This document shows positions 34,060 through 56,708 of a stretch of DNA of 64,000 nt, one piece after another; position 1 is the stretch's first letter; each line of letters begins with the position of its first letter. The notes beneath the pieces are model-generated. The model saw only the letters and a list, made by a program, of their open reading frames with translations. It did not search any database and was not told where the DNA came from. A program made the position numbers and the translations under genes. Source of the DNA: Methanococcus maripaludis C5 (GTDB lineage Archaea > AGJL01 > Methanococci > Methanococcales > Methanococcaceae); NCBI RefSeq assembly GCF_000016125.1, contig NC_009135.1, positions 868,001 to 932,000 on the forward strand, written 5' to 3'.

Positions 34060-34076
34060 TATAATCATATATAATA
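34060..34076. repeat. attL core repeat
   Basis: TATAATCATATATAATA, identical to 56623-56639. It lies 34 bp upstream of ilvC, in its promoter region, so it may double as the ilvC TATA region on the other strand. The match extends imperfectly to the left (TTTTATAG versus TTTTAAAGT). Confidence 0.7.
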
Positions 34077-34101: not shown

Positions 34102-34716
34102 CACGAATGTATTAATCAATTATACTTAACAATAGAAATCATGATATTTATAAGTTCTTCTTTTAACGATTAAAGAAAGGAAAACGCTTATTTTTTTAGA
34201 CGATATTTAGACGTATAAATGGACGATTTTTAAGATCTATATTAAAAACGAGTAATTCAGTCTTATTCAATTTGCCGAGCTACAAAGTTGTACGGAAAAT
34301 TTACAGTGTAACACCTTGGTAACTATTATTAGCCCTGACGGGCAAGTTGTGAAAGTTGGTTCCACTGCGCCAAAGTAAAAAGTACGCCCTACACCTTGCA
34401 GGTGCAGGGCTACTGACTAGGGTGTGGGGCTTCGCCCAGAGAGTGCTTGGGGCATATGATTTAAGTTTGGATTATAAAAATAGTAAATGGATCTGTTGCT
34501 TTCGGGTCTCTGAACCCTCAGCCTCATCTCAAGATGCAGGATTGATTAATTTTTAGGGTGTTGCATCTCTCCGATTCGGCACGCAACAGGAATTATTTTC
34601 CAGAGGTCATGCCATGGGCTTATATGCCCTTTCGGGTATCTATCGCCCAGGCGATAATGAGTGCTTAGGGCAATTGATTTTATTCCCTTCGGGCTTGGAA
34701 ACTCGTTAAAATATAT

Positions 34717-34783
34717 AATTTTTTACTATATCGGGTTTTGCCCTTTGGACCGCTACGCTCAAAACCTCGTATAGTAAAAAATT
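34717..34783. repeat. Long inverted repeat (24-bp stem)
   Basis: A 14-bp perfect outer stem (AATTTTTTACTATA/TATAGTAAAAAATT) continues inward as TCGGGTTTTG/CAAAACCTCG with one mismatch and G-U pairs, leaving a 19-nt loop. It is the strongest structure in the window and lies inside the proposed RNA. Confidence 0.8.
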
Positions 34784-34872
34784 CAAAACTACTGAACAAG
34801 ACCAAAAAGGTCAGACAGATTACTATCCCCAAGGGGTTTAATTTGCATATATGATTTTATTCCCTCCGGGTT

Positions 34873-34890
34873 TTACTCGATATCGAGTAA
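34873..34890. repeat. 18-bp perfect palindrome
   Basis: TTACTCGATATCGAGTAA is self-complementary. It could be a hairpin of the RNA or a protein-binding site. Confidence 0.6.
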
Positions 34891-35106
34891 TGCTTCAGAA
34901 AAAACTACTTTTCTGCTGCATTCAAAATATATTTTTATTTTTTTAATTTGTTTTTTCATGCTGCAGACAGTTCATATATTTTTTTCTTATAATAAATTAA
35001 AAATTCCAGGAACAGCCCCTAAAGAAAAAATTTAATCTTTGGAAAATTCTTTAAATTCAATTTAAACGATAAATAAAAGTTTTTCTTATAAGAAAATGTA
35101 AAAAAA

Positions 35107-35256
35107 TTATTTCATTCTATTCAGATCAGATTTATTAAATTTATTTTTTTGTTCCCTAGTTTCCTTTAATTTTTTGGTCTTTTTCTTTTCTAAAATTTCC
35201 CTTCTTACTCTTTCCGAACGAATTCTTTCAATTCCACCGATTTTTAATTTTTTCAT
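35107..35256 (-). CDS. 49-aa highly charged small protein, last gene of the virion/transfer module
   Basis: ATG at 35256 follows GAGGTGTGGGA. The protein starts MKKLKIGGIERIRSERVRRE and is dominated by Lys, Arg and Glu, predicted as one long helix. It follows the ATPase gene by 9 bp. It may bind nucleic acid; no family is recognised. Confidence 0.6.
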   Translation of the reverse strand: MKKLKIGGIERIRSERVRREILEKKKTKKLKETREQKNKFNKSDLNRMK

Positions 35257-35265
35257 TCCCACACC

Positions 35266-35793
35266 TCATGCTTTCATTTGTTGAACATACATTTTTGCAC
35301 GTTCTATTTTTCCAGTTCTTTCAATTGCTTTCTGTTTTTCGAAGAATTCTTCAAAACCTTTCAAAAACGGAACTTCAAAAGAAAAGCCAGTATCAGTTAC
35401 TAATCGCCCATAGTTAGCAATATAAAACGGCTTAAACATGGAACGAATGACTTTATCGAATAAATAAATATCCGGTGCAGTTGTAACAAACATAGGAAGA
35501 ACTTCTCTTACTTCTTGAAGCAAAAAGTTAAAATTTTTATTTTTTTTGGTAGAATAATCACGATTGTTAAATTTAGATGCAAAATCATCTAAAAATATAC
35601 AGTCGAATTCGTCTAAGTCTTCAGGAATATCATTTATTGAGTAACAAATTTTATACTTAAATCCGGCTTTTTCAAACAGATACGCAATTGCGTTCATATG
35701 GGTAGTTTTTCCACTTCCACGAGCCCCCACAATAGCAATAGAGTCATGCTCCCTATTTTCTTTGTTATGTTTCAAAAGGTCTTCAAATCTCAT
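35266..35793 (-). CDS. Small P-loop NTPase, candidate genome-packaging or transfer ATPase
   Basis: A 175-aa ATPase with Walker A GARGSGKT (23-30) and Walker B CIFLDDF (D69, D70). FVTTAPDIYLFDKVIRSMF in the middle may be the sensor region. The size and acidic Walker B resemble the compact A32/HerA-type packaging ATPases of tailless archaeal viruses; an AAA transfer ATPase is an alternative. Its ATG overlaps the previous gene's stop (ATGA), so the two are coupled. Confidence 0.65.
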   Translation of the reverse strand: MRFEDLLKHNKENREHDSIAIVGARGSGKTTHMNAIAYLFEKAGFKYKICYSINDIPEDLDEFDCIFLDDFASKFNNRDYSTKKNKNFNFLLQEVREVLPMFVTTAPDIYLFDKVIRSMFKPFYIANYGRLVTDTGFSFEVPFLKGFEEFFEKQKAIERTGKIERAKMYVQQMKA

Positions 35794-36077
35794 TTCTGAC
35801 CCTCTTTTTTAAGATTTTCCTTTTCTTCAATATCCGAAGATTTTCTATAATCTTGAGTATTATTGCAAACTTGATTATAATATGGCAACATATCCGGGTT
35901 CGAGTGAGTTAAACGGTTTAATTTATTTTTTTGCCAATAATTATACACTTCTTTTGGAAAATGACCCCGTTTTACACATTCTTTCATAATATAATCAAGA
36001 TAATTGTGTGTTTTTGTAACGTATTTAGGCGGAATTATTGCCCGTGCCATCTTCTTCGAAGTTTCTGGATTCGGCAT
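35790..36077 (-). CDS. Hypothetical 95-aa basic protein
   Basis: MPNPETSKKMARAIIPPKYV at the N-terminus; the rest is basic and Asn/Gln-rich (YYNQVCNNTQDYRKSS). GGTGG five bases before the ATG sets the start, so its first 53 bases overlap the end of the upstream gene in another frame. It is translationally coupled to the ATPase. Family unknown. Confidence 0.65.
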   Translation of the reverse strand: MPNPETSKKMARAIIPPKYVTKTHNYLDYIMKECVKRGHFPKEVYNYWQKNKLNRLTHSNPDMLPYYNQVCNNTQDYRKSSDIEEKENLKKEGQK

Positions 36078-37140
36078 TTTTACCACCAAACATCATTTTA
36101 AACATTTCTTCATAAGGATTATCCTTATTTTCTTCAAGAATTTCGTCATTTTCTAATTTATCAACCTTATCAAGTTCGTATTTTGATACTCCTGGTTTCA
36201 AATCAATCAAAATAAGGTTTAAAATTTTTCCAACTTTTTCGATAACTCTTGAATCAAATGAATTTTTCATTTTTGAGTGTTCCTCAAACATATTTGATAC
36301 TTTTTCATTCATTTCCTCGAATATTCCCCGATTAGTCAGATAATCAATTTCCGAATACATATGAACGTCTGAAAAGACAATCCTTTTATTTTCCCAGTCG
36401 ATAGAATCAGCCAAAAAGACAGAGCCACCGTCATGTCCTGAAAATGCTAGAGATTCAACCATGTCATTTTTTAAATGTTTTAAATAGCTGATTTCATGTT
36501 CTAAAACTTCTTTTTTAAATTTAGCTTCGTTAAATTCTTTCAATAAGTTATCATATTTTTTGAAGTTTTGTTTTTGTTTTCCTGTTGCAATTCTATAAGC
36601 TCGTTTTAAATCCTTTTTTCCGGCTTTTTTCATTGCGATAAAGTGATATATAACATTTTCAAGCTCTTCTTTAACTTTTATTTTGGCCCTAATATCTGCA
36701 TCGACTTTTTTAATTTCTTCGATTATTTTATCAAGCTCTTTGGAAGACCCAGCAAACTCGATTCTTGCAATATATTTTTTCTTGGTTCCTGACATTTCCC
36801 ATTCGCCAGTTTTAAAAAGTTTTTTCGGGAAATAGTAAGGAGTTAGTGTTCTACCTTCGATTACAAGAATTACAATATATTCGACTTTGAAAAGACTTGA
36901 AATCATAAGGTATGAGGGAACAGCAAAGGCAAATGCACCAAGTAAGGTATAAATAAACCATACTGGAGCAAATGACATCAAAGAAACTAAAAGCCCGATG
37001 ACTAAACAGACTTTAAAAGCTTTCCAGAGAAATTTTCTTCCCTGATCTACAAGCTCGTACTTCCAGTCGTAATTATATGTTACATTTTTAAGGTTTTCCT
37101 GCGGTTCTTGTCTTGGCATCTGTTGTATATCATCTTCCAT
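36025..37140 (-). CDS. Large membrane-anchored protein with coiled coil (371 aa)
   Basis: MEDDIQQMPRQEPQENLKNV opens a short cytoplasmic tail. Two adjacent hydrophobic helices (VCLVIGLLVSLMSFAPVWFI and YTLLGAFAFAVPSYLMISS) come next, and the rest is a soluble domain with long Lys/Glu helices (about residues 120-220). It may be a structural or motor-associated protein of the virion/transfer complex. The start follows GGGGGCGGTTGGTA and overlaps the previous stop (TAATG). Not recognised. Confidence 0.7.
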   Translation of the reverse strand: MEDDIQQMPRQEPQENLKNVTYNYDWKYELVDQGRKFLWKAFKVCLVIGLLVSLMSFAPVWFIYTLLGAFAFAVPSYLMISSLFKVEYIVILVIEGRTLTPYYFPKKLFKTGEWEMSGTKKKYIARIEFAGSSKELDKIIEEIKKVDADIRAKIKVKEELENVIYHFIAMKKAGKKDLKRAYRIATGKQKQNFKKYDNLLKEFNEAKFKKEVLEHEISYLKHLKNDMVESLAFSGHDGGSVFLADSIDWENKRIVFSDVHMYSEIDYLTNRGIFEEMNEKVSNMFEEHSKMKNSFDSRVIEKVGKILNLILIDLKPGVSKYELDKVDKLENDEILEENKDNPYEEMFKMMFGGKNAESRNFEEDGTGNNSA

Positions 37141-37838
37141 TACCAACCGCCCCCGATTTCATTTTCTTTTTTCTTTTTCATTCGTTTAATCCACAGGAAA
37201 TTTAAACCCGAAACGATAATACCTCCAGTAATCATATAGACAAGTGTGTTAAGGTAGTACCACGATTGTTTAATTAAAATCTCTTTATCTTCGCTTTCCT
37301 CGTACCATTCGATATAACGTTTGTGAATAACCTTTAAAGTTCCAGTATCATAGATAATCTCTTGATTTTCATCTTTAATTTGAACCCTAAATTTATTAAC
37401 GTCTGAATGTTCAAGATTAAAGCGATACATCGAATAACCTTGAGATAAATTATATTTCTTCATCTCATCATCGTTAATGTGGAAAAAAACAGTATTTCCG
37501 CTAAAATTATTATAGATATTTACAAAAATTTCATCGTAAATAATAAAGCTCTTAGGTCTGTATGCTAAGGATATAGAAGAATTCTTCCGTTGTGAAGTTA
37601 TTGTAACATCTAAATCGTTAGTTGTTTTGTAAACCTCACCGTATGCAGTCTTGTCTTCAAGTTTATAATCTCTGGAAATCTCTTTCACATCTTTAAAAAG
37701 TGAAAAGGATTTCGATATTATTGCATCTGATGACTCATTTGCAACGATCATTATTGTATTTTCAGCACTAACTGGAGTAAATAACGATGCAGTAATAAAA
37801 AGAATCATCAAACCTAATACAAATCCTTTTTTAAACAC
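37140..37838 (-). CDS. Secreted/anchored surface protein (signal peptide, beta domain, C-terminal helix)
   Basis: A 232-aa protein. Residues 1-25 form a signal peptide (FKKGFVLGLMILFITASLF-TPVSA). A beta-rich exterior domain of about 165 residues follows, then a single helix (YYLNTLVYMITGGIIVSGLNF) and a basic tail (KRMKKKKENE). This type I topology suits a virion spike or envelope protein. Start GTG after GAGGTTAAAAC. Confidence 0.7.
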   Translation of the reverse strand: MFKKGFVLGLMILFITASLFTPVSAENTIMIVANESSDAIISKSFSLFKDVKEISRDYKLEDKTAYGEVYKTTNDLDVTITSQRKNSSISLAYRPKSFIIYDEIFVNIYNNFSGNTVFFHINDDEMKKYNLSQGYSMYRFNLEHSDVNKFRVQIKDENQEIIYDTGTLKVIHKRYIEWYEESEDKEILIKQSWYYLNTLVYMITGGIIVSGLNFLWIKRMKKKKENEIGGGW

Positions 37839-37852
37839 GTTTTAACCTCATT

Positions 37853-38113
37853 TTAAAATATTACCCTTTTTCCAGTATTCCACAATGTAGCTCCCCAGAT
37901 CATGCCAAGCATGTTTAGAATAATTCCATCAACTTCAATTCGGATACCTAAAATATGGATTATCGGGTCGCCAATTAGCGGATAGATAAATAAATTTTTG
38001 ATAACTATTTCATGAATTCCAAAAAAACCGATGAAGAATAGGATTGTTGTTATCAAAGCCCATTCTTGTTTTTTAATAAGTTTACGACCATGTTCTTTTT
38101 TATTTGGCATCAT
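37853..38113 (-). CDS. Two-helix membrane protein (86 aa)
   Basis: A basic N-terminus (MPNKKEHGRKLIKKQEW) is followed by the helix ALITTILFFIGFFGIHEIV, and later a second hydrophobic stretch (GIILNMLGMIWGATLW). GTGATAACC precedes two adjacent ATGs. Unknown family; part of the module. Confidence 0.65.
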   Translation of the reverse strand: MMPNKKEHGRKLIKKQEWALITTILFFIGFFGIHEIVIKNLFIYPLIGDPIIHILGIRIEVDGIILNMLGMIWGATLWNTGKRVIF

Positions 38114-38124
38114 CGGTTATCACA

Positions 38125-38394
38125 TCAATCGTCATCTTCGAAGAATTCACCGATTATTGGTATTTTTGGAGCTAACCACAGGAGTAAGATAATAGTAATT
38201 ATCATAACGACAAGATAACCAACAGGAGAAAACAGTCCTAAATCCCCCGATGCTATTTGTGCGGTCTGCCATGTTGCAAAATAATACGTAATCGGTGAAG
38301 TAACCATGTTGAATAATCCGGTAATTATCGAAGATATACCATCAAAGACTGCTGAAAACACGTCTTCAAAATATCCGGTTACATCAATTGCCAT
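38125..38394 (-). CDS. Membrane protein (89 aa)
   Basis: An amphipathic/hydrophobic first half (YFEDVFSAVFDGISSIITGL) and a strong C-terminal helix (VGYLVVMIITIILLLWLAP), with an acidic tail ending EDDD. AAAGGGGATAAT precedes the ATG. SPVGY here parallels APIGF in the next gene, so the two may share a C-terminal module. Unknown family. Confidence 0.65.
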   Translation of the reverse strand: MAIDVTGYFEDVFSAVFDGISSIITGLFNMVTSPITYYFATWQTAQIASGDLGLFSPVGYLVVMIITIILLLWLAPKIPIIGEFFEDDD

Positions 38395-38408
38395 ATTATC
38401 CCCTTTTT

Positions 38409-39203
38409 TTAAGTCGGAATTACAAGCCCGATTAAGAATTTTATAAGTCCAATCGCTAGTGCTGCCGAAATTACAAACATGAATGTAAATCCAATCGGAG
38501 CAAACATACCAAATTCATCAATACATGACTGGTAAATGCCCTGAATACAATATGTAATCTCGTTAATTGCGTTAGAAATCCAATCAATAAACTGTACCGG
38601 AATATCAAAGATAGTACTCAATAATTCATCGAGTAACCATTGAACAAGAGCAGATAAAACATCTGCAATATTAACAGTATCCCCATCAATATATTTCGAA
38701 ATTTCAGGCATAGCTTGAACAATTTTTATACCAATATCTCCCGAAAGTGTACCGTCAGACTCTAAACCCTCAGCACTTGCAGGAGTTTCTTCTCCATCTG
38801 TTGAACTTCCACCATAAGAGTCATCAAATGCCCCCAAATCCAAAGTGGTAGTATCATCGTTATTGTTATCATAATCTGAAGAACTTGATGAACTTGAACC
38901 GGAAATAATGTTTGAAACTGCATTTGAAACTGAAGAAACCGCACTTGAAACAACGTTCTTCACACTCGTTGCGACACTTGATACGGCACTTGAAACTGAA
39001 GAAACCGCACTTGAAACAGTACTCGAAACGGTTGAGGCCACTTTCGAAACTGTTGAAGATACTGAAGACACAACATTTGAAACTGTTGAAGATACGCTAC
39101 TTACAGCACTTGAAATTGAACTAGATATACTCGACCAAGACCAAGCATAATTCGGGCTTATTAAAAGGAATAAGCAGAGGATTAATACAAATCCTTTTTT
39201 CAT
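38409..39203 (-). CDS. Secreted Ser/Val-repeat protein with C-terminal membrane helices (264 aa)
   Basis: Signal peptide (KKGFVLILCLFLLISPNYAW), then about 90 residues of near-periodic S-x-V-S-S repeats (units such as SSVSSTVS and SSAVSSV), an acidic Asp/Asn linker, and a C-terminal domain with helices (LIKFLIGLVIP). The repeat has an 11-residue-like rhythm that would make a hydrophobic face on a coiled coil or a beta stack. On DNA the repeat is GAAAC(T/A)G-like units. It is a good candidate for a fibre or surface protein. Confidence 0.7.
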   Translation of the reverse strand: MKKGFVLILCLFLLISPNYAWSWSSISSSISSAVSSVSSTVSNVVSSVSSTVSKVASTVSSTVSSAVSSVSSAVSSVATSVKNVVSSAVSSVSNAVSNIISGSSSSSSSDYDNNNDDTTTLDLGAFDDSYGGSSTDGEETPASAEGLESDGTLSGDIGIKIVQAMPEISKYIDGDTVNIADVLSALVQWLLDELLSTIFDIPVQFIDWISNAINEITYCIQGIYQSCIDEFGMFAPIGFTFMFVISAALAIGLIKFLIGLVIPT

Positions 39204-39210
39204 GCTTTCC

Positions 39211-39600
39211 CTACTTGATTAATTGATTGTATTTGAATGCGTTGAAAGTTAAAACTCCAAAAAATGAAACATAGCCGAGCAAGAAGATACAGCAAGACAT
39301 ATCTCCTGTTAATGCACCGCCTATAATTTCCATTGAAAAGTTTGTGTAACCGTCCATCAAAAGACCTACAAAAGCTCCGATTGACGCACCAATTGATTTT
39401 ACTTGTGTGGTTACGTTACTAACTGTCGAAGTAATTCCAAGCATTCCTGCAACAGACCCTAAAAGCCCAAAGAGGAAATCACCCGAAATTAAAAATCCAA
39501 GTCCTAAAACGACTAAACCGACTACAAAAGGTACAACTGAATCCTTAGTTACTACCTTATCGTATTCGACACCGTCATATCTTCCATCATAAACAGTCAT
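39211..39600 (-). CDS. Membrane protein with Gly-rich helices (129 aa)
   Basis: Three helices: VVPFVVGLVVLGLGFLISGD, IGASIGAFVGLLMDGY and CCIFLLGYVSFFGVLTF. AAGGAGGATTGAGTAAAC precedes the ATG, overlapping the previous stop. Helix-rich small proteins with Gly-packing are common as membrane-virion structural proteins; family unknown. Confidence 0.65.
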   Translation of the reverse strand: MTVYDGRYDGVEYDKVVTKDSVVPFVVGLVVLGLGFLISGDFLFGLLGSVAGMLGITSTVSNVTTQVKSIGASIGAFVGLLMDGYTNFSMEIIGGALTGDMSCCIFLLGYVSFFGVLTFNAFKYNQLIK

Positions 39601-39602
39601 GT

Positions 39603-40460
39603 TTACTCAATCCTCCTTCCTATTTTTCCGGCAAGTTCTGTCGGGTTAAAGTACGGAGTACAAGCAAATGCACCGATTAAAAGTACAATTCCTGAACCGC
39701 CAAACATCATATCTTTCGTGGTTGACGAATCAACGCCTACTGAATCGATAACCTGTACGCAGTAGTAGAATGTGTTTCCTGCACCGCTTGGCAAGTATGT
39801 GGCATCGATATAGAATGTTGTCGTATCTTGTAGTTTCAAGAGAACATCAGGAGTAAATATAAATTCGGCAACAATTGAGCCGGTTTCGTTATCGTATTCA
39901 AGGTCTTCAAATGAGTATTCTCTAACAACTACGCTTGCAGTGTGTAAATTAACGGTAAGTGTTGAATTTGTTTCAATCATATCGACATCGTCTGAGTCGA
40001 TGTAAACTCTGATTTTATCGATTTTGTCAGCTTCTGAACTGTTAAACCGCATAGTTAAGTATGCCATTGGTTGTTGAGTTGATGAAACGTATGTATCGGT
40101 AGTACCTGTCAAGAAGTACGTTAAACCGTCTGAATCGAGAGTATCAAGAGTATATTTGTTTGTTCCGTCAATGAAATATGCACTTGGTAACAAAACAATT
40201 GATGAATTTTCATCACAGTTTGATGCAATAACAGTATTTACGCCAATATCAGATATTGAGTCCATATACAAACCTGCAACAGCAGGGGCAACCAAAGCAA
40301 CCATTAAAACAATTCCTAATGCTATCATGGTCTTTTTCTGTGCCATTTTCTGGTATGTACTTTTACTCATTCTTTTTCCTACTGAATAAGTGTACTTTCC
40401 AGAATTTGCGAACTTATTGCCATAATCTTTGGCTTTTTTTCCGTAATTCTTTTTTGCCAT
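39603..40460 (-). CDS. Membrane-anchored beta-rich surface protein (285 aa), candidate major virion protein
   Basis: A basic N-terminal 42 residues rich in Lys/Tyr/Ser, one helix (MIALGIVLMVALVAPAVAGL), about 190 exterior residues with alternating beta pattern and NxS/T sites, and a C-terminal helix (GSGIVLLIGAFACTPYF) with a basic end. The exterior ends near FYYCVQVIDSVGVDSSTT. Layout fits a major structural protein spanning an envelope. CGAGGTGAGTT precedes the ATG. No known capsid fold is recognisable by eye. Confidence 0.65.
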   Translation of the reverse strand: MAKKNYGKKAKDYGNKFANSGKYTYSVGKRMSKSTYQKMAQKKTMIALGIVLMVALVAPAVAGLYMDSISDIGVNTVIASNCDENSSIVLLPSAYFIDGTNKYTLDTLDSDGLTYFLTGTTDTYVSSTQQPMAYLTMRFNSSEADKIDKIRVYIDSDDVDMIETNSTLTVNLHTASVVVREYSFEDLEYDNETGSIVAEFIFTPDVLLKLQDTTTFYIDATYLPSGAGNTFYYCVQVIDSVGVDSSTTKDMMFGGSGIVLLIGAFACTPYFNPTELAGKIGRRIE

Positions 40461-40472
40461 AACTCACCTCGT

Positions 40473-40736
40473 TTAATTTTTTGAATTTTTATGCATCTGT
40501 TTTCCTGCACCGTAGAATATTTTTGAAATTTTCGCAAAAATTCCGGCTTTTTCAGAGTCTTTTGTCTTTTTAGACATTGCATAAAACTTTTTAGCTTTTT
40601 TGTATGCCGTATTTACAGCCTTTCCCTTATCTTCGCCATAAGTCTTGTTAATGTAGTTCATTTGACCTGAAACATAGTCATTAACACCTTGCTGGGTTTC
40701 AAAAGAGTTCGGGTAAGCTTTTTTTTGTCTTGCCAT
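40473..40736 (-). CDS. Basic soluble protein (87 aa), candidate DNA-condensing protein
   Basis: MARQKKAYPNSFETQQGVND at the start, then Lys/Tyr-rich helices (TAYKKAKKFYAMSKKTKDSE, IFYGAGKQMHKNSKN). Positive charge suggests nucleic-acid or membrane-surface binding. CGGTGGTTAA precedes the ATG. The next gene upstream is separated by a repeat-rich 147-bp gap. Confidence 0.6.
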   Translation of the reverse strand: MARQKKAYPNSFETQQGVNDYVSGQMNYINKTYGEDKGKAVNTAYKKAKKFYAMSKKTKDSEKAGIFAKISKIFYGAGKQMHKNSKN

Positions 40737-40804
40737 TTAACCACCGAAATGTTTTTAGGGTAACCCTGAGTATTAATTATTAAAATGGCAGTATAAAAAA
40801 GCTC

Positions 40805-40883
40805 TAAAAATGTTAAAAACGTTTAAAATGTTGTAAATGTTGAAAATCTCTAAAATGTTTTAAATGTTGTAAATGTTGTAAAT
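40805..40883. repeat. Short tandem repeats within the virion/transfer module
   Basis: Nine-base-type units related to AAATGTTGT recur about eight times (on the minus strand ACAACATTT). A TATA-like TTTTATACT on the minus strand (about 40790-40798) and an AGGGT-A-ACCCT hairpin (near 40756-40766) follow, so an internal promoter for the main structural genes is plausible. Confidence 0.55.
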
Positions 40884-41108
40884 CTAAAGGTCTGATTTAA
40901 CCCATTTTGAAACTAAATATCCAAAAATAAAAGCTGACTCAAAAGCCCAGTAAACGTTATTTATTAATTCTGAATTGTAAAAAACAATTTCTCTAAAGAA
41001 TAAAAGTGCAGAAATAAAGCAGAGAATGTATAAAACACCTATTTTATTATAATGGGCGTTAAATCCCATTAATGCCCCAATAAGCCAGTAGCCATTGTAT
41101 AACAACAT
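40884..41108 (-). CDS. Membrane protein (74 aa)
   Basis: Hydrophobic throughout (WLIGALMGFNAHYNKIGVLY, ILCFISALLFFREIVFY, AFESAFIFGYLVSKW), about three helices. ATG overlaps the previous stop (TAATG), with AAGGGAAAATA just upstream. Unknown family. Confidence 0.6.
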   Translation of the reverse strand: MLLYNGYWLIGALMGFNAHYNKIGVLYILCFISALLFFREIVFYNSELINNVYWAFESAFIFGYLVSKWVKSDL

Positions 41109-41215
41109 TATTTTCCCTTTTTAATTCGAATCCATATAATGGCTAAGATTAAACAAGCAATAAATCCAAATACATATTTGGCAACGAAAAAATACAAATC
41201 GTCAAATAATTTCAT
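41108..41215 (-). CDS. 35-aa single-helix peptide
   Basis: Starts MKLFDDLYFFVAKYVFGFIA and ends with IRIKKGK, a type of single-pass small membrane protein. GGCGATAATCA precedes the ATG, which overlaps the upstream stop (ATGA); its own stop overlaps the next ATG. Coupling on both sides supports a real gene. Confidence 0.6.
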   Translation of the reverse strand: MKLFDDLYFFVAKYVFGFIACLILAIIWIRIKKGK

Positions 41216-41472
41216 TGATTATCGCCTTTTTTAGCTCGTGCTTTTTGAACTCTTTTACTGTGTGCTAATTCCATACCAAGTGCAAAAATTCCCCAAAAAC
41301 AAAACGTTTCAAATGCAATTCCCAAATAAAACAAACTTTGAAATGCAAATAGCATAAATGGGTCATTTTGCATATTCAAATAAACTAAAAATCTTGCAAA
41401 ACCTAAATAAAATATAATATAACCTATTGCAAGTACAATATGTTGCCAAAACTCTTTTTCGACTTTTTCCAT
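41212..41472 (-). CDS. Membrane protein (86 aa)
   Basis: About three helices (HIVLAIGYIIFYLGFARFLV, FMLFAFQSLFYLGIAF, FCFWGIFALGMELAH) and a basic tail. CGAGGGGATAATTC precedes the ATG. Unknown family. Confidence 0.6.
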   Translation of the reverse strand: MEKVEKEFWQHIVLAIGYIIFYLGFARFLVYLNMQNDPFMLFAFQSLFYLGIAFETFCFWGIFALGMELAHSKRVQKARAKKGDNQ

Positions 41473-41475
41473 GAA

Positions 41476-41766
41476 TTATCCCCTCGATACATAGAAATCA
41501 ACTTCATTTTTTGGAATACTGACAAGTTCGAACTCAAATCCGCTTTCAGTTCTCAAAATTCTAAGGCAGATGTGGTTTTTCTTTTGAGTCGAAATATTAA
41601 AAGATAAATTTCTAAATTGCCCGATCTTTAAACCAAGTTTTTCAGGGTCTTCTGAATCAATCCATTTTTCAGCTTCTTCCATAGCTTTCTCTTTTATCTC
41701 TTTTCGAACTCCGCCGTTTATTTTATCGTAAATCTCGATTACTTCATCCGCAGGAACCAATAACAT
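41476..41766 (-). CDS. Soluble hypothetical protein (96 aa)
   Basis: MLLVPADEVIEIYDKINGGV then an alpha/beta pattern (EKAMEEAEKWIDSEDPEKLG, KNHICLRILRTESGFEFEL). One of the few non-membrane proteins of the module. GGGCGATGTAA precedes the ATG. Confidence 0.6.
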   Translation of the reverse strand: MLLVPADEVIEIYDKINGGVRKEIKEKAMEEAEKWIDSEDPEKLGLKIGQFRNLSFNISTQKKNHICLRILRTESGFEFELVSIPKNEVDFYVSRG

Positions 41767-41970
41767 TTACATCGCCCTAAACGATTCTTTGTATTTTGCA
41801 CCAACATAAGAAGAAACTGCCAAAAAAATACAGCCAATGCCACCGCAGATTAAAGAACCTTTAACAGTTCTTGCAACCAAACAGAGCGTGAAAAATACGC
41901 CCATTAAAGTAATTAAAACTCCAACATCAAAGCCTTTGGAAAATCCGTTATCAAATTCACTTTTCTGCAA
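41767..41970 (-). CDS. Two-helix membrane protein (67 aa)
   Basis: I start at TTG 41970, two bases after the previous stop, because AGGTGG lies six bases upstream; a longer frame would overlap the upstream gene without a ribosome site. Helices: VGVLITLMGVFFTLCLVART and LICGGIGCIFLAVSSYVG. Unknown family. Confidence 0.55.
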   Translation of the reverse strand: MQKSEFDNGFSKGFDVGVLITLMGVFFTLCLVARTVKGSLICGGIGCIFLAVSSYVGAKYKESFRAM

Positions 41971-41971
41971 A

Positions 41972-42400
41972 TCAAACCACCTGATAACCATTATTATTGA
42001 ATTCAATTTCTTTTCTGTCAATTAGGTAATCTAAAATTTCATCGATTGTTAATTCATCAAAATCAAGGTCTATATGCTTTAAAATATCTAAATAAGACAT
42101 ATAGCGATTTTTAAAGATTAATTCGTAAACTTTATCGATACTTTCATGAGTTATTGAATTATTTAAGTAAATTCCTTCAATCAATCTCAAATCTCTTAAA
42201 ATTTTAAGAAATATGAAAAACTCGTTTACATTTGGAAATTCTTGTTTAATTTTTTCTATTCTCTGCATTAACTCCTTTCTCGTAATTTTTGTTAGAATTA
42301 CGCTTCTAAATGTTGTTAATAAAGCATTTGCGTGTACTTCGTCCATTATTTTTGAAGTTCTGATTTTTTCTTCCCGTATTGAATTTATGGATTTATACAA
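41972..42400 (-). CDS. Probable winged-helix-type protein (142 aa), first gene of the virion/transfer module
   Basis: TTG start after AAAGGTGAT. Helical, with a C-terminal part resembling a winged helix (YLDILKHIDLDFDELTIDEI, then LDYLIDRKEIEFNNNGYQVV). As first gene it may regulate the module. The promoter is likely at 42517-42535 (CCCTAAAATATAAATATGA read on the other strand). Confidence 0.55.
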   Translation of the reverse strand: MYKSINSIREEKIRTSKIMDEVHANALLTTFRSVILTKITRKELMQRIEKIKQEFPNVNEFFIFLKILRDLRLIEGIYLNNSITHESIDKVYELIFKNRYMSYLDILKHIDLDFDELTIDEILDYLIDRKEIEFNNNGYQVV

Positions 42401-42409
42401 GTTAATCAC

Positions 42410-43670: not shown

Positions 43671-45794
43671 TTACAAAATTAAAGTCTGCTGCCCTTTTTT
43701 CCGCTCCAAAACATTCAAATCATAGGACACTTTTAAGGTTTTGAGAACTCTTACAGCGGTTTTATTGCCTAATTGGGCAACTACTTGATAAGGATTCTTT
43801 TTTATGTCTTCTCTCGTTTTAATTCCAACATCATAGAGCTTTCTTGCTTTTACCCGACCTATTCCACGGATTTTTAAGAGTTCAACAAGTTCTTCAGAAG
43901 CCCCATATTTTAACCGGACTTCGATATTTGAAAACTCGTTCCAGTAGTCTTTCAGGTTTTCCGAGATTCTGAGAAGCTCTTTTGCCGAATAAATCATCCA
44001 GTTCATTTGCTCTAATTTGTATCGTAAAATTCCGGGTTCTACTGCAAAGTTTTCGTGTATTTCTTCGTCTGTACTTTCATTAATCCAAGCTTTAAACAGT
44101 CCTGAGTAAAAGAAATCATCGACAAGGTCATCTACTGTATCATATCCTAAAGATTCAAGCTCGTTTCTTAATTCTGAATTATCTTCAGGAGTTCGGAGTT
44201 TTGGTTTCATTTCGTGAGTTCCCGAAAGAGTTAATAAGATGTGATCTTCAAAAGAATAGTTTTCAAGTCCTTTTAAGCCGTCTAATATGTGAATCGCAGA
44301 TGAAGGCGAAATATAAAGCTCGGATACTCTCAAACCTAAAGCAGTAACTTCAAGGATTTCATTTTCAGGTCTTACAAGTTTTGAATTTTTGAAATCAAAC
44401 AGGATTTCTTCAACGGTTCTCTTTATTTTCCCGAAATCATCATATTGGTAGGCATAAAACGTATTTTTTAAGAATTTGTAAAGTTCTGTCTTATTTCGGG
44501 TAATATCCGAAGCAATTAAACCTAAAATATGCTTTTCTAAGCTCTTGTAATTGGCAATTCCTGAATAGATGTGTTCAGGGTCTCCATTTAAAAGATTCAA
44601 AGCTTCCATAACATCGGCTTTTTTCTTCAGAACAACTATTCCTTCACCATAAGGGTCAAGTCCGGGTCTTCCTGCTCTACCAATGCACTGGTGAATTTCC
44701 ATAACAGGTATTAATTTCATTCCGTTATCTGAAAATCTCTTTACATCTCGAATTATTGCACGTCTACAAGGCATATTCAGACCTGCTGAGAGTGTTGGAG
44801 TACAGCAAATAACTTTTATTATTCGATTTCTGTAAGCTGATTCAACGATTTTTCTCTGTTGTGTAGTTAATCCTGCATGGTGAAAGGCTATTCCTTTTTT
44901 TACACAGTCTGCAAGAGTTTTAACGGTTTTACCCTCTGAATCTGAGCTTAAAAGTTCTTCAGAAACTTCAATTAATTTCTCAACTTCTAAGGGGTGTAAG
45001 TATTCCCTTAAATCGTGCTTTTTAGCTTCACCAACTGCGTTTCTTTTGGAACTGCAAAAGATTAAACAGGAGCCGTCTTCATTTACTGTATCGATAACTA
45101 AATTTTCTAAAGGATTTTTCTTATGCCTTTTAACGTCCTTTTCTTTCTTATCAGTATATTCAATTGTATTTTCAAAGAAAGTCGCTTTTCTAAGCTCAAT
45201 AGGTCTCCAAGAGTCAATAACTAATTTAGCATTTAACCAGTCTGCGAGTTCTCCAGGGTTCCCGACAGTTGCCGAGAGTCCTATTATCTGCAATTCTAAA
45301 GATTTTAAAATCGTTAAAACCACTTCTAAAGTAGCTCCCCTGTCTCCATCCCCGATTAAATGAATTTCATCTATTACCACACATGAAACGTCTTCAAGCC
45401 AGTCAATTTTATGTCTGATTAATGAATCGAGCTTTTCTGAAGTTGTTATGATAAGATTATTACTTGAAAGGTCTTCTTTTGAATCAAAATCCCCGATTGA
45501 AATACCGATTTTTAAACCGTATTTCTCGTATTTTTCCTTGAATTCTTCGTATTTCTCAGTAGCTAAAGCTTTTAGCGGAACTATGAATATTGCTTTCTTG
45601 TTAGTGGGTTTCTTATTTTCATCTAAAAGATGATTTATAAAAGCCATTTCACCGATTAAGGTTTTTCCGCTTGCCGTTGGAATACATACAAGGAAATTTT
45701 TATTTTTCTCTAAAAGTCCGTTATCTAAGACTTTCTCTTGGGGCGGTCTTAAGGTCTTGATTCCAAAATCTTTTAAAACTTCGTGAACGCTCAT
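43671..45794 (-). CDS. Hel308/Ski2-like superfamily 2 DNA helicase
   Basis: A 707-aa helicase. Motif I PTASGKT (39-45), DEIH box (142-145), GLSATVGNPGELADWL, FHHAGLTTQQRKIVE, TPTLSAGLNMP and QCIGRAGRPGLD are all present. The C-terminus has the ratchet region and a helix-hairpin-helix (ELLKIRGIGRVKARKLYDVG). It is close to archaeal Hel308, which unwinds forks 3'-5'. Here it probably serves element replication. ATG overlaps the upstream stop (ATGA). Confidence 0.88.
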   Translation of the reverse strand: MSVHEVLKDFGIKTLRPPQEKVLDNGLLEKNKNFLVCIPTASGKTLIGEMAFINHLLDENKKPTNKKAIFIVPLKALATEKYEEFKEKYEKYGLKIGISIGDFDSKEDLSSNNLIITTSEKLDSLIRHKIDWLEDVSCVVIDEIHLIGDGDRGATLEVVLTILKSLELQIIGLSATVGNPGELADWLNAKLVIDSWRPIELRKATFFENTIEYTDKKEKDVKRHKKNPLENLVIDTVNEDGSCLIFCSSKRNAVGEAKKHDLREYLHPLEVEKLIEVSEELLSSDSEGKTVKTLADCVKKGIAFHHAGLTTQQRKIVESAYRNRIIKVICCTPTLSAGLNMPCRRAIIRDVKRFSDNGMKLIPVMEIHQCIGRAGRPGLDPYGEGIVVLKKKADVMEALNLLNGDPEHIYSGIANYKSLEKHILGLIASDITRNKTELYKFLKNTFYAYQYDDFGKIKRTVEEILFDFKNSKLVRPENEILEVTALGLRVSELYISPSSAIHILDGLKGLENYSFEDHILLTLSGTHEMKPKLRTPEDNSELRNELESLGYDTVDDLVDDFFYSGLFKAWINESTDEEIHENFAVEPGILRYKLEQMNWMIYSAKELLRISENLKDYWNEFSNIEVRLKYGASEELVELLKIRGIGRVKARKLYDVGIKTREDIKKNPYQVVAQLGNKTAVRVLKTLKVSYDLNVLERKKGQQTLIL

Positions 45795-47194
45795 TTTTTC
45801 ACTTCATTGTCATCAAGCTTTCTAAATGAAATAACCGTTTCATATGCACTGTATTTCCAGTCTTTATCACTCATTTCATAGAGCTTATCTTCATAGTCTT
45901 TCTGAGCTTCCCTGCTTCCAATTTCAAACCGAGAATAATCATCTATTTTTCCACAGTTTTCACAAACATGGCAGTACTTCTCAGGGTCATATCGCATTAA
46001 AAAACCACATTCACAACGGTAAAATCCCTGTAATGAATGTTTTAATCTTAATACCGAGTCTTTCCACCGCCAAAGACCTTTTTTACCACCAAGTTCTTTT
46101 TCAAGTGGGGCAATTAAACCACGATATTTAAGACGTTCTCTAAGACCCCCAGTTGCAAAATCAAACGACAGTACAAAAGCCCGACCAAAAAGGATAGTTT
46201 TTACCAAATTCAAAGGTAAATGCCACCATTCAGCATAATCTTGAACGATATCCTCACCAGTAATTTGTATGGGTCTTAATGAATCAAAATCAAAACCAAA
46301 GAAGGCATAACAATGCTTTATATTCTTAACAATACTGTAATACATTGTTTCAGGACTTCCAACAATCCACTGTCTCGAAGCTTCTCCGTTCCACGTGAAC
46401 TCGTGCCTATTGATCCCCGCTCCTTTTTGATACCTCTTAAACTGAACTTTTATTGATTTTCTTTCAGGAGTGTAATATTCCGTATTTGTCAAATTTCCGA
46501 ATGCTTTCATGTAATTTTGCTTCCTTTCATCAGTAATATGTTGAAACTGAAGCGATTCACAATTTAACCATTCAACGTCAATTTCTGCACTTTGAATTGA
46601 AACCTCAATTAAAGAATAAATATCTTCATTTGAATTATTCTCTCGTGCAATCTTTTCAATATCAATTCCAAAGATTTTTTTAAGGTAATAATCGTATTCG
46701 TACTTATACTGTTCAATTCTGTCGTGAAGGAGTTCTGTAAATTCCCTTAATAAACTTCCTTCTGAATCTTCTACAACCTCGATAGGAAGAACGTTATTGT
46801 CGTGATAAGAATCTTCATAAGGGTCTATATTGTGTTCTTTCATGTAGAGTCGGTTCACATTGAAGTAACCCCTTGCAACGTGTGGTTGCCTGAAAGATAT
46901 CGCAATTGAAGCAATTTCTTCACCATCAAAGTCTTCTTCAAGAGGAAATTTACTCCATGTTTCGACAGGCGTTCTGAAGTGATAATCTCCGGTTTTTCTT
47001 CCGTGTCTTTTTTCAGAAATCAAAGTTACAAGTCGAGGAAAGTCTTCAGACCATTTATTAAATGCAGTCTTGTCAAACCCATTTCCCAACGTTTTACGAA
47101 GTAAAGGCACGTGAATCGTAACATAAACCCTATCGATTACGATTCTCCGTTGATAAAACTCCTCATAGCCCGAGCGATATCTTACCTCATTCAA
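45791..47194 (-). CDS. Possible replication initiator with Cys-rich zinc ribbon (467 aa)
   Basis: Unrecognised large protein. The middle contains an alternating strand pattern ending KVQFKRYQKGAGINRHEFTW, reminiscent of the K-x-Y..R-x-E core of replication initiators of the filamentous-phage gpII type. A zinc ribbon YRCECGFLMRY / CHVCENCGK lies near residues 393-415. Start is TTG at 47194. Coupling to the helicase supports a replication role; the Rep idea is tentative. Confidence 0.5.
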   Translation of the reverse strand: MNEVRYRSGYEEFYQRRIVIDRVYVTIHVPLLRKTLGNGFDKTAFNKWSEDFPRLVTLISEKRHGRKTGDYHFRTPVETWSKFPLEEDFDGEEIASIAISFRQPHVARGYFNVNRLYMKEHNIDPYEDSYHDNNVLPIEVVEDSEGSLLREFTELLHDRIEQYKYEYDYYLKKIFGIDIEKIARENNSNEDIYSLIEVSIQSAEIDVEWLNCESLQFQHITDERKQNYMKAFGNLTNTEYYTPERKSIKVQFKRYQKGAGINRHEFTWNGEASRQWIVGSPETMYYSIVKNIKHCYAFFGFDFDSLRPIQITGEDIVQDYAEWWHLPLNLVKTILFGRAFVLSFDFATGGLRERLKYRGLIAPLEKELGGKKGLWRWKDSVLRLKHSLQGFYRCECGFLMRYDPEKYCHVCENCGKIDDYSRFEIGSREAQKDYEDKLYEMSDKDWKYSAYETVISFRKLDDNEVKK

Positions 47195-47607
47195 CGGTAA
47201 CCACGTCGGAAAATATCTGCAATCTCCCCATCACAGAGACCATAATCTTTTCCTGCACTTTGTAAAGTCGTTAAACTTGCCCCGGTACTTCTGAGTTTTT
47301 TAAGTTCGTCAAGTGCGTTTATGTGGTAACCGTCATCAATCGCAGCTCTAAATCGGTCATCTTCCTGATATGCTAATATTATCATTCGCATATCCATGTG
47401 AGTCAAATAAGCCTGTTTTGAAAGATCTCTTGAAGGACAGTTTGCATAAGACTCAATTAAAACATATCCTGCGTGTTCAGGGTCAAACTCATTAATTACC
47501 TGAGCTTCATCACCGTAACTTTTTTTGTGAGGATAAGCTACAACTCGACCATAGGACAAATTAACCCTTGCAGGTTTCGGAAGTTTGTCAAAGTCAATTA
47601 CTCCCAT
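47191..47607 (-). CDS. Hypothetical protein of replication module (138 aa)
   Basis: GVIDFDKLPKPARVNLSYGR at the N-terminus; the C-terminus (TTLQSAGKDYGLCDGEIADI) looks like a helix-turn-helix. AGAGGCTTAAATC precedes the ATG and its stop overlaps the next gene. Not recognised. Confidence 0.6.
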   Translation of the reverse strand: MGVIDFDKLPKPARVNLSYGRVVAYPHKKSYGDEAQVINEFDPEHAGYVLIESYANCPSRDLSKQAYLTHMDMRMIILAYQEDDRFRAAIDDGYHINALDELKKLRSTGASLTTLQSAGKDYGLCDGEIADIFRRGYR

Positions 47608-47610
47608 GAT

Positions 47611-48054
47611 TTAAGCCTCTTGTGATTTTGCGTTTTCAATAACTTCGTATGCTTTTTTGATTACTGCTTCAGGAATATTCAAGTCTTCAGCGTAACACTC
47701 AATTGTTTTTTCAGAGTTTCCGTTTCTAATCATTCTTACAATTTCCCAAACTTTACCATTTGCAACACACTTATCAAACATTTCTCCAAATCCGCCTTCA
47801 TCTGCGATTTTACTGTCAATAACTTCGCTAAGTAATGATATCGGAATGTTAGCGAGGTATTTTGTTGCACCGTTGGACTGGAACGATTTTACTTCATCGA
47901 AAAATACGGTTACAGTTCCTTCTTTTTCTTCGTTGTAAATGTCGTATTTGTCAGTTTTAGGGTTTTTGTCTTTTCCTTTTTCAATAATTACGCTTACATT
48001 TTTTCCAAAATGTTTTCCGTGAAATTCTGCTTTATGTTCTCCAATTTTAGCCAT
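47611..48054 (-). CDS. Hypothetical protein of replication module (147 aa)
   Basis: MAKIGEHKAEFHGKHFGKNV begins a beta-rich N-terminal domain (VSVIIEKGKDKNPKTDKYDI, EGTVTVFFDEVKSF); the C-terminal half is helical. Could be an OB-like single-strand binding protein, but this is speculation from strand pattern. Start set by GGTTGAT four bases before the ATG; it overlaps the previous gene by 8 bp. Confidence 0.6.
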   Translation of the reverse strand: MAKIGEHKAEFHGKHFGKNVSVIIEKGKDKNPKTDKYDIYNEEKEGTVTVFFDEVKSFQSNGATKYLANIPISLLSEVIDSKIADEGGFGEMFDKCVANGKVWEIVRMIRNGNSEKTIECYAEDLNIPEAVIKKAYEVIENAKSQEA

Positions 48055-48319
48055 TTTTATCAACCTTTTTGATTTTGTAGTCTCCATAGCAATAATTTAC
48101 TTCAATTTTATCGTTAGGCTGCAAACCGTTAGATTCGGTCTTGAGATAGTAAGGATTTTCGTTTCTATCCTCAACGACAAAAACATGAACTTTTACTTCT
48201 CTGCTTCCAAGGTACTCCCCATTTAACGAAAAAGTTTTAACTTTTTTGTATTCGGGAGGTCTTCTTCCTTTTACCACATACTTTTGAAGTCTGTAAGTTC
48301 GTTCAATTTCAGGATACAT
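48047..48319 (-). CDS. Small beta-rich hypothetical protein (90 aa)
   Basis: MYPEIERTYRLQKYVVKGRR, then strands (KTFSLNGEYLGSREVKVHVF, DKIEVNYCYGDYKIKKVDK). Overlaps the genes on both sides by a few bases. Unknown. Confidence 0.6.
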   Translation of the reverse strand: MYPEIERTYRLQKYVVKGRRPPEYKKVKTFSLNGEYLGSREVKVHVFVVEDRNENPYYLKTESNGLQPNDKIEVNYCYGDYKIKKVDKNG

Positions 48320-51745: not shown

Positions 51746-51945
51746 GTATTCTGACAAGACCAATGTAAGAATTACCTTTTTGATTATTACCTTTTAAAGC
51801 TATTTTAAAACAATTAAACTAATTTTAACGTAAGATAATGCTATTTTTTTAATTTAAAGCGTATCCCCCTCATTAAAAATTCAATTAAAATAATTATTCT
51901 TCGATTGAATATTAAACTTCTCTTTTACAATTTAACATTAAATTG

Positions 51946-51974
51946 GAAATTAAACCTTTAAATTTTATATATAA
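51946..51974 (+). promoter_or_regulatory. Shared promoter/operator element, copy 1
   Basis: GAAATTAAACCTTTAAATT followed by a TATA stretch; the 19 bases are identical at 54723. It lies about 60 bp before the start of the nuclease gene at 52033. Confidence 0.65.
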
Positions 51975-52032
51975 TTTTAAACAGATAAATATCCATTTGA
52001 TTTTAACAAACAAGTTTCAAAAGGGGCGGGTT

Positions 52033-55147: not shown

Positions 55148-56007
55148 TTATTTACCCATAATCCTTAAATATTCTCTTTTTAAACTCTCTTTATTCTTAT
55201 GAAGAAAATCGAAGTTGTTTTAATGTCTTCGTGACCTAAAATGTCTTGAAGTGTTCTTAAATCCATTCCTTTATCCACGCAAGTTGTTGCAAAGGTATGT
55301 CTCAATATATGCGGAGTAATCCGTTTATTAACCTTTTTTCCATAAACGTCATTCAAATAATTGATATAATGCGTTATAGATGACTTCCCGATTGCCTTAC
55401 CACGCCGATTTAAAAACAAATTCGGTGCTTTTGGTTTTAAAATATCCCTTTCTCGAAGCCATCTTTTTAGATTAATTCCCATATCTAAGTCAAAAAACAC
55501 AAATCTATCTTTTCTACCCTTTCCACCACGTATAAAAATTGTTTGCTCGTTAAAATCTACATCATCAAGTAGTATATTCTGAAATTCTGAAACCCTCACC
55601 CCTGTTTTAATAAAAAACATGGTAAAAATATAGAAATTAACATCAATTATACTTCTAAGAAGGTCATCTGACTGTTTTTGAGTCAAATAATCCCTTTCCT
55701 TTTTATCGGGTTTCAGAGTATTTAAAAAACTTCTAACTGGATTGCCCGTAATATATTTATGTTTATTAGCCCATTCATAAAATCTATTTAGAGACCTTAT
55801 ACGGTATATTTTTGTATTTCTCGAAGCTTCATACACCTCAAAAAATTCAATTATGTCTTCTATTGTTAAATTTTCAAATGAAAGACTATCGTCATAGTAA
55901 TTTAGGAAGATTTTCATAGTAGATTTATAATTTACAAGGGTAGTTTCACTCAGACCCGAACAGAATTTCAAATATCTTTCGACAAGCTCTCTCGATTTAT
56001 CATTCAA
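55148..56007 (-). pseudogene. Tyrosine recombinase (XerC-like integrase), frameshifted at the catalytic Tyr codon
   Basis: The readable frame gives 275 aa (down to 55180): an N-terminal SAM-like core-binding domain, then R138 (TGVRVSEF), K163 (GGKGRKDR), H233-x2-R236 (HILRHTFATT) and H259 (LGHEDIKTTSI). Tyr should stand at 268; the frame reads ATT-TTC there and ends FFIRIKRV. Another frame continues LHKNKESLKREYLRIMGK to 55150, a normal XerC-like tail. Loss of one A from TAT (Tyr) accounts for it. Start is TTG after GGTGAGGG. It lies just after the companion gene. Confidence 0.85.
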
Positions 56008-56008
56008 C

Positions 56009-56533
56009 TTAATCCCTCACCACATACTTTATATTATCCATAGGTAACGATTTATCACGTAATCTAAAGTATTTGCCCTTTCGCTCAACCATTGCCTTAA
56101 ATTCTAAATTATTCATAATTATTTTTTGTAAAATTTCTTCCTGGTTTTTATTCCCTTCAATTCCAGTTTTAATTTTAAAATCTTCATAAGTTAACCAAAT
56201 ATCGGGATTTTTATCTAAAATTCTCACTAATTTATCATAAACTTCTTTAAATTCTGAATCTGTTGGAGCTTCAAGAAATTTTTCAAATGAATCATCAATT
56301 TTCTTTTCAACTCTTTCAAATGAACTTTCAGTAGTCAGCACAACATCTTCAAGTTTAGCTAATATTACATCCATTTTAGTAAGCATTTCATCATTTCGAG
56401 TTTTATACAAGTGCATAAATTTCATTGCATTTTTTGCAAAACTTGAAAGTGAAGTATAACCCAATTCCTTACTCATATTTTTAAAATCTTCAAGATCATT
56501 ATCATCATCAAAATTAATATTTCGCCTTATCAC
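56009..56533 (-). CDS. Integrase-companion protein with coiled coil and winged helix (174 aa)
   Basis: GTG start (MIRRNINFDDDNDLEDFKNM) after GGTGGTTTT. A helical N-terminus is followed by a coiled coil (EDVVLTTESSFERVEKKIDD) and a C-terminal winged-helix-like part (NPDIWLTYEDFKIKTGIEGN). It ends one base before the integrase start. By position it may be an excisionase or a regulator that binds the att inverted repeats. Confidence 0.65.
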   Translation of the reverse strand: MIRRNINFDDDNDLEDFKNMSKELGYTSLSSFAKNAMKFMHLYKTRNDEMLTKMDVILAKLEDVVLTTESSFERVEKKIDDSFEKFLEAPTDSEFKEVYDKLVRILDKNPDIWLTYEDFKIKTGIEGNKNQEEILQKIIMNNLEFKAMVERKGKYFRLRDKSLPMDNIKYVVRD

Positions 56534-56595
56534 AAAACCACCCAGTATATAAATAAAAACTGTATTATTAAATTTATAATTCATTATATATAAGT

Positions 56596-56612
56596 GATAC
56601 CGAAAAGGTATC
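56596..56612. repeat. Inverted repeat inside attR, possible integrase site
   Basis: GATACC-GAAAA-GGTATC, 10 bp inside the right core repeat and counterpart of 34086-34101. It also sits upstream of the integrase-companion gene and could be its operator. Confidence 0.6.
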
Positions 56613-56622
56613 GTTTTAAAGT

Positions 56623-56639
56623 TATAATCATATATAATA
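56623..56639. repeat. attR core repeat
   Basis: TATAATCATATATAATA, identical to 34060-34076. It lies 69 bp before the BASS gene. Confidence 0.7.
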
Positions 56640-56708
56640 ATATCTAAAATTAGGCATAAAATAAAATAAATTACGACAAAACACGAAATTAAATTTGAGG
56701 TGATAACG

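Follow-up and report, generated by a model that had tools for sequence, protein, structure and literature searches.

A membrane-protein module of an integrated element in Methanococcus maripaludis C5, and its probable relation to capsid-less pleomorphic archaeal viruses

A compact operon in an element beside ilvC

We analysed a window of 64,000 nucleotides from the 1.78-Mb chromosome of Methanococcus maripaludis C5 (C1:868001-932000), which holds an integrated element of 22.6 kb precisely beside ilvC (34060-56638 of the window). Within this element, 17 tightly packed open reading frames (ORFs) lie on the minus strand at 35107-42409 (Table 1). The ORF listing gives 16 of them in tandem, with 51-373 amino acids (aa), and a 35-aa single-helix ORF, which ends in a TAATG overlap and brings the count to 17. 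An earlier note on this DNA had described a compact 17-gene module with mostly membrane or secreted products, and this description holds. Eleven of the 17 ORFs have a strongly hydrophobic segment resembling a transmembrane (TM) helix, according to the hydrophobicity profile, with the 35-aa ORF judged by eye. The gene overlaps reported there are genuine, both this TAATG and the ATGA or short overlaps at other junctions (e.g. 35790-35793 and 37140-37146), and most module genes are preceded by a purine-rich stretch. The small ATPase placed at the distal end is indeed a P-loop ATPase, but it is the penultimate gene, with the 51-aa ORF coming after it.

A chance origin is excluded. ORFs of at least 70 aa number 15 and take up 94% of the segment, whereas 200 Markov-resampled sequences had 1.5 such ORFs on average and 6 at most, with no more than 22% coverage.

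The same module, colinear, is present in just one other of 36 Methanococcales genomes, G023 (L011), from a different genus. Nine genes in the stretch between the 175-aa ATPase and the 96-aa protein, both included, are homologous and in the same order there (31-54% identity), and the 264-aa protein has a counterpart. In G023 the module joins directly to the 467-aa protein (61% identity) and lies in an element with the same replication genes. The window-specific extras are small genes (87, 74, 35, 86, 84 and 145 aa) and the intervening helicase. In every module gene compared between the two, third codon positions are the most divergent and second positions the least (0.37/0.25/0.53 for the 373-aa gene). 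The conserved module genes evolve as proteins, under purifying selection. The module is therefore not a decaying remnant, and the decay that the earlier note had named as a possible refutation is not what we see.

In terms of individual products, the 89-aa and 264-aa proteins have in common an FxxxAP-TM motif, and their C-termini align (profile, E = 1.5e-4). Matches of the 264-aa protein to tail and tape-measure PHROGs are artefacts, lying in its low-complexity repeats. A structure prediction of the 285-aa protein, as the note had advised, was run and gave a low-confidence model (predicted local distance difference test, pLDDT, 53), with strands at residues 133-239 reaching pLDDT 65-77. The model was too poor for a fold search, which was discarded.

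The element is bounded by an exact direct repeat, and in a relative (G015) both flanks are contiguous with one repeat copy, i.e. an empty site. As ARAGORN found no tRNA in the window, the insertion is intergenic; Rfam found no RNA family. The ilvC-adjacent site is an integration hot spot. At the same site, genome G016 has about 2.2 kb of other sequence (C4:85757-87983, L094), partly sharing the left end of the element. This non-coding left end contains a 24-nt inverted repeat (34717-34783) and is a candidate replication origin or regulatory end. The single sizeable intergenic gap of the module holds a tandem repeat array, a candidate iteron-like or regulatory sequence. Elsewhere in the element, 49173-49712 and 51943-53025 encode paralogues, kept in related elements, that share a nuclease-like VECK(Y/F)R motif; their DNA is 71% identical over 94 nt.

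Table 1. Features of the module and of the element that carries it (window coordinates; percentages are identities, and G023 refers to its type B element, L011)
Feature	Position	Strand	Evidence
Left attachment repeat TATAATCATATATAAT, upstream of ilvC	34060..34075	.	16-bp exact direct repeat
Non-coding left end common to related elements	34151..35112	.	Pieces matching G015 and own-genome elements at 73-87% (blastn)
51-aa basic protein, final module gene	35107..35262	-	ORF listing; 85-aa basic ORF at equivalent spot in G023
175-aa P-loop NTPase, VP8/ORF8-like	35266..35793	-	54% to G023; 31-36% to type A ATPases
99-aa small NTPase partner (ORF7 position)	35790..36089	-	Profile of type A 82-95-aa partner, probability 97, E = 5e-11
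373-aa membrane protein, soluble C-terminal domain	36025..37146	-	52% to G023
232-aa secreted or anchored protein, signal peptide and C-terminal TM	37140..37838	-	44% to G023; TM profile
86-aa membrane protein	37853..38113	-	48% to G023
89-aa protein, C-terminal TM	38125..38394	-	49% to G023
264-aa secreted protein with signal peptide, low-complexity stalk rich in VSS, and C-terminal TM	38409..39203	-	Counterpart at matching place in G023
129-aa membrane protein, about four hydrophobic segments	39211..39600	-	37% to G023
285-aa protein with basic cytoplasmic tail and a beta ectodomain between two TMs	39603..40460	-	31% to G023
87-aa soluble basic protein	40473..40736	-	ORF listing; no relative found
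Imperfect 9-bp tandem repeats	40798..40887	.	Gap between 87-aa and 74-aa genes
74-aa membrane protein	40884..41108	-	ORF listing, TM profile
35-aa single-helix ORF	41108..41215	-	ORF listing
86-aa membrane protein (second of this length)	41212..41472	-	ORF listing, TM profile
96-aa soluble protein, kept in both element types	41476..41766	-	43% to G023; type A 111-114-aa family, probability 96, E = 5e-9
84-aa membrane protein	41767..42021	-	ORF listing, TM profile
145-aa soluble protein, opening gene of module	41972..42409	-	ORF listing
Hel308-like helicase, 707 aa	43671..45794	-	NCBIfam/Pfam; 86% to own-genome type A element
467-aa replication-side protein, TFIIB-type zinc ribbon, family unassigned	45791..47194	-	Alignment of 8 elements; zinc ribbon matches
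138-, 158- and 90-aa proteins	47191..48319	-	Conserved in most related elements
Tyrosine integrase, uninterrupted	55180..56007	-	Pfam, E = 8e-33
Integrase-adjacent conserved protein	56009..56725	-	28-31% to own-genome type A and G023 elements
Right attachment repeat TATAATCATATATAAT	56623..56638	.	16-bp exact direct repeat; empty-site comparison

Two element types in Methanococcales

Full-length members of the ATPase family number exactly eight in the 36 genomes, all remaining profile matches being limited to the P-loop. Six belong to Methanococcus elements termed here type A: two in the own genome (C1:1212-1244 kb and, partial, 208-219 kb) and one each in G015 (626-653 kb), G016, G019 and G020. 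The other two, from the window element and the G023 element, make up type B, the divergent form to which the window module belongs.

Type A elements and the window element share both element ends at the DNA level, the integrase and the block of 467-, 158-, 138- and 90-aa proteins, the sharing being partial in some of them and the block divergent or partial in the own-genome 208-219 kb element and in G016. Three module proteins are common to type A by profile, namely the ATPase, its partner of 82-99 aa and the 96/114-aa protein. Downstream of the ATPase, type A encodes small membrane proteins, a VP3-like and a PEGA-like protein, and homologues of the pT26-2 plasmid family proteins t26-5p and t26-6p. 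Type B has instead the unrelated 285/129/264/89/86-aa set, upstream of the ORF6-like position, and is without t26-5p/t26-6p. Searched directly by sequence against viral and genome contigs, plasmids and phages, the window proteins gave nothing usable.

As for the 467-aa protein, it is present in eight of eight elements, with a YQK-x2-G-x2-R-x-E motif and a C-terminal TFIIB-type zinc ribbon. It had no match among virus Rep profiles and is possibly a new replication initiator.

The second element of the own genome (C1:1212132-1244153; L041, L016, L044) is of type A, with t26-5p/t26-6p homologues, an integrase and an 86%-identical Hel308-like helicase. It has 16-17-nt direct repeats at its ends, and looks complete rather than a pT26-2 remnant. 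The third (C1:208404-219054; L017, L043) is a partial type A element without t26-5p/t26-6p; its ORF6-like protein and ATPase are 98% and 92% identical, respectively, to those of the second. At the same post-ATPase place, G019 and G020 have different large opposite-strand genes of 1004 and 767 aa (L014:6592-9606 and L013:9964-12267), a possible cargo or defence hotspot. Finally, two type A elements have an opposite-strand gene of 660-688 aa at their left end (G015 C1:627254-629320, L015; own genome C1:1213057-1215039, L041 and L016; 74% identical), which the window element lacks.

Probable kinship with pleomorphic viruses and competing explanations

The 175-aa gene encodes a P-loop ATPase, modelled with pLDDT 90. 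We compared profiles of the type A and type B families with five Thalassapleoviridae genomes and two haloarchaeal pleolipoviruses. For control, the best of 78 reversed profiles reached E = 0.023, and the known cross-family relationship between VP4 proteins gave E = 2e-17. The eight-member profile matches the nucleoside triphosphatase (NTPase) of Thalassapleoviridae with E = 2.3e-6 over 160 columns, and the window and G023 proteins alone, as a two-sequence profile, do so with E = 6e-5 over 105 columns. The match of the latter profile to the NTPase of Pleolipoviridae is weak (E = 7e-4). In Foldseek, the ATPase model gave generic P-loop matches, which were the inovirus Zot-like ATPase domain, Hda/DnaA, RFC and spindle-virus ATPases, with STIV2 B204 lower. 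An archaeal inovirus was weighed and dropped, since nothing else in the module fits.

The ATPases of SSV1, ATV and His1 score like the virus NTPase, and for this reason the specific pointer to pleomorphic viruses is the ORF6-like protein of type A. This protein of 410-502 aa, just ahead of the ATPase, matches the Thalassapleoviridae ORF6-like protein over 218 columns that take in the TM region (probability 97.8, E = 8.9e-13). The type A order of big protein, small protein and NTPase is also that of Thalassapleoviridae. Furthermore, a 124-aa protein of type A has a weaker match to VP3 (probability 54, E = 1.2e-4, 103/122 columns).

In the window, the place of the single type A protein is filled by two, the 232-aa protein (signal peptide and C-terminal helix) and the 373-aa protein (2-3 helices and a soluble tail). 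The latter has a weak colinear C-terminal alignment to the type A ORF6-like protein (E = 1e-3), and its gene, as called, has about 65 nt in common with the partner gene, an overlap seen in all eight elements (44-77 nt). From position, overlap and this alignment, we infer that the two are the first and second halves of a split ORF6-like protein. The reading is plausible because HRPV-1 has separate ORF6 and ORF7.

Taken as a whole, the module is probably the operon for envelope morphogenesis in an integrated element that can excise and whose relatives fall with pleomorphic archaeal viruses lacking a capsid (Thalassapleoviridae, a family related to Pleolipoviridae). The kinship of the cassette is established by profiles, while for particle formation we infer the following course. 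After excision at the 16-bp sites, the circular element would replicate with its own replication-side genes, and the 17-gene operon would place matrix and surface proteins in the cell membrane. The 129-aa protein, in view of its size and hydrophobicity, may line the inner face of the envelope as a matrix protein in the VP3 position. The 285- and 264-aa proteins would, from their topology, be surface spikes, the 264-aa protein being a spike or fibre candidate. The NTPase complex would help a membrane patch to bud round the DNA, giving a host-membrane bubble studded with module proteins and released without lysis.

The window element resembles Thalassapleoviridae (PMC10919331), the family of Archaeoglobus veneficus pleomorphic virus 1, in the apparent order of a big multi-TM protein, a small protein and an NTPase, in the profile similarity of this NTPase, and in the nature of an integrase-bearing temperate element of an anaerobic archaeon; the strong ORF6-like and weaker VP3-like matches are shared through sister type A only. 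Unlike those viruses, it has no recognisable VP4 fusogen or VP3, its ORF6-like protein is apparently in two parts, and it has the 467-aa zinc-ribbon protein, a Hel308-like helicase and a length of 22.6 kb. With Pleolipoviridae (HRPV-1 etc.; PMC12642806) it shares the expected capsid-less mode, and its apparent 232/373 split recalls HRPV-1, where ORF6 and ORF7 are separate and precede the NTPase. No window protein has a direct profile match to VP3, VP4, ORF6 or ORF7 of HRPV-1/HGPV-1.

Several observations weigh against this interpretation. The eight-member ATPase profile scores about equally with spindle-virus ATPases, the P-loop similarity being generic, and the ORF6-like assignment of the 232- and 373-aa proteins depends on position, overlap and a weak C-terminal match. 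Despite comparable length and hydrophobic segments, the 129-aa protein has no profile match to VP3, and no module protein matches VP4 profiles, for which a structural match is still conceivable. Pleolipoviridae genomes are given as 7-17 kb, smaller than this element. Only two type B modules are known, and the support comes from sequences and models. As no module protein has a VP3 or VP4 sequence match, we do not file the element in Pleolipoviridae or Thalassapleoviridae.

The main rival, which we regard as unlikely, is a provirus of a spindle-shaped (lemon) virus, with small two-helix coat proteins and an AAA-type ATPase ending the operon, as in fuselloviruses and His1. The profile probabilities for SSV1 B251 (90), ATV ORF286 (88) and His1 ORF16 (88) are on a par with that for the pleomorphic-virus NTPase, ATV ORF286 and a protein of a Nitrosopumilus spindle virus are among the BFVD matches, and the ATPase also closes the SSV1 structural operon. 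However, no module protein profile-matches the coat proteins SSV1 VP3, His1 ORF21 or ATV ORF131, and the ORF6-like protein of type A matches Thalassapleoviridae, the only viruses that tblastn with AvPV1 gp8 found in the phage collection.

Somewhat less probable still is plasmid transfer of the pR1SE kind, in which plasmid-encoded membrane proteins sit in DNA-carrying host vesicles and there is no true virion, an explanation that differs from an envelope operon mainly by definition. The module has no recognisable fusogen, and Badel et al. drew on pR1SE when they proposed vesicle-based transfer for pT26-2 (PMC6972569). A dedicated viral assembly pathway is favoured, on the other side, by the conserved NTPase cassette together with its virus homologues.

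A conjugation or secretion apparatus in the cell envelope is highly improbable. It would account for many membrane proteins beside an ATPase, and NCBIfam has a pilin-like conjugal protein as a sub-threshold match for the N-terminus of the 285-aa protein (16.5 bits against a cutoff of 40, E = 0.005). Against this, no relaxase, coupling protein, VirB4/VirD4/HerA-type motor or pilin was found in the proteins searched (Pfam, NCBIfam, PHROGs), and the ATPase is a single compact P-loop domain. We give equally little credence to a domesticated cell-surface or defence locus that has lost mobility; only two copies are known, but the integrase is intact, the attachment repeats match, the empty site exists and the module is colinear in a different genus, within another element with the same replication genes. 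As to a tailed or double-jelly-roll (DJR) virus, no HK97-fold or DJR capsid, terminase or A32-type ATPase family appeared in Pfam/PHROG scans.

The earlier note had seen no recognisable capsid, and neither do we, having looked in the module for DJR, HK97 and spindle-virus major capsid proteins. Its preference for an enveloped virion or vesicle apparatus over a tailed or DJR virus pointed in the right direction, the best-supported relatives being capsid-less enveloped pleomorphic viruses; the conjugation apparatus it also allowed is left without relaxase, VirB4 or coupling protein.

The pT26-2 family and its transfer

The pT26-2 core is composed of seven genes (t26-5p, 6p, 7p, 11p, 13p, 14p and 15p). 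The note had suggested that the module may belong with pT26-2-like elements. As direct membership this fails: the core proteins of pMEFER01 have no BLASTP or profile match to module proteins, and order-wide searches with t26-14p and t26-6p gave matches elsewhere in Methanococcales and none in the window element. The window element does have a tyrosine integrase and an insertion flanked by attachment sites, pT26-2-type traits that are not diagnostic alone. Compared with the family (pMEFER01, TKV2/3, MMPV1; PMC6972569), it shares the host order, and its backbone-sharing sisters carry t26-5p/t26-6p, but it has no detectable t26-5p/t26-6p, 447-aa t26-14p ATPase or other core proteins. Judged by gene content, the link is an indirect one, through sister elements that share its backbone and its ATPase cassette.

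In type A, matches to pMEFER01 range from E = 1e-45 to 1e-12 for t26-5p and are about 1e-31 to 1e-29 for t26-6p. The type A t26-6p has T26-6p Pfam domains and matches PDB 2wb7 (pT26-6p) with E = 8e-74. It is only 25-28% identical to that of pMEFER01, against 41-48% for canonical members. The latter (447-aa t26-14p and t26-6p) are other loci, often in genomes also holding type A, and the canonical core they share with type A is limited to t26-5p and t26-6p. These are the two largest pT26-2 core proteins, and in type A they stand where spikes are expected. The t26-6p match of the own genome at C1:1218 kb, in a type A element, may be the "remnant" MmaC5_IP1 of Badel et al. (PMC6972569).

How pT26-2 moves between cells has been open since 2010, with secretion, conjugation-like transfer and vesicles as published ideas (PMC6972569). 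VP4-type proviruses of methanogens have been described in Methanonatronarchaeales and Methanomassiliicoccales (PMC10919331). In the literature searched, no paper connects Methanococcales elements or pT26-2 with pleolipovirus relatives.

We tentatively propose, as a possibility short of an even chance, that Methanococcales host a capsid-less enveloped virus lineage in which the ATPase cassette stays constant and the envelope set is exchanged as a whole. The spikes of one form would be t26-5p and t26-6p, so that the whole pT26-2 family would spread as enveloped virus-like particles, and the window form would use a new, unrelated spike and matrix set. Methanococcus maripaludis is genetically tractable, and knockouts are therefore feasible.

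What is new here is an unrelated envelope set around a conserved cassette. If the proposal is true, the pleomorphic-virus lineage would extend to Methanococcales. The presence of t26-5p/t26-6p beside a pleolipovirus-type cassette in Methanococcus elements suggests that these two may be envelope proteins of capsid-less particles, a concrete answer to how pT26-2 is transferred, and the main value of the finding is that this question becomes directly testable.

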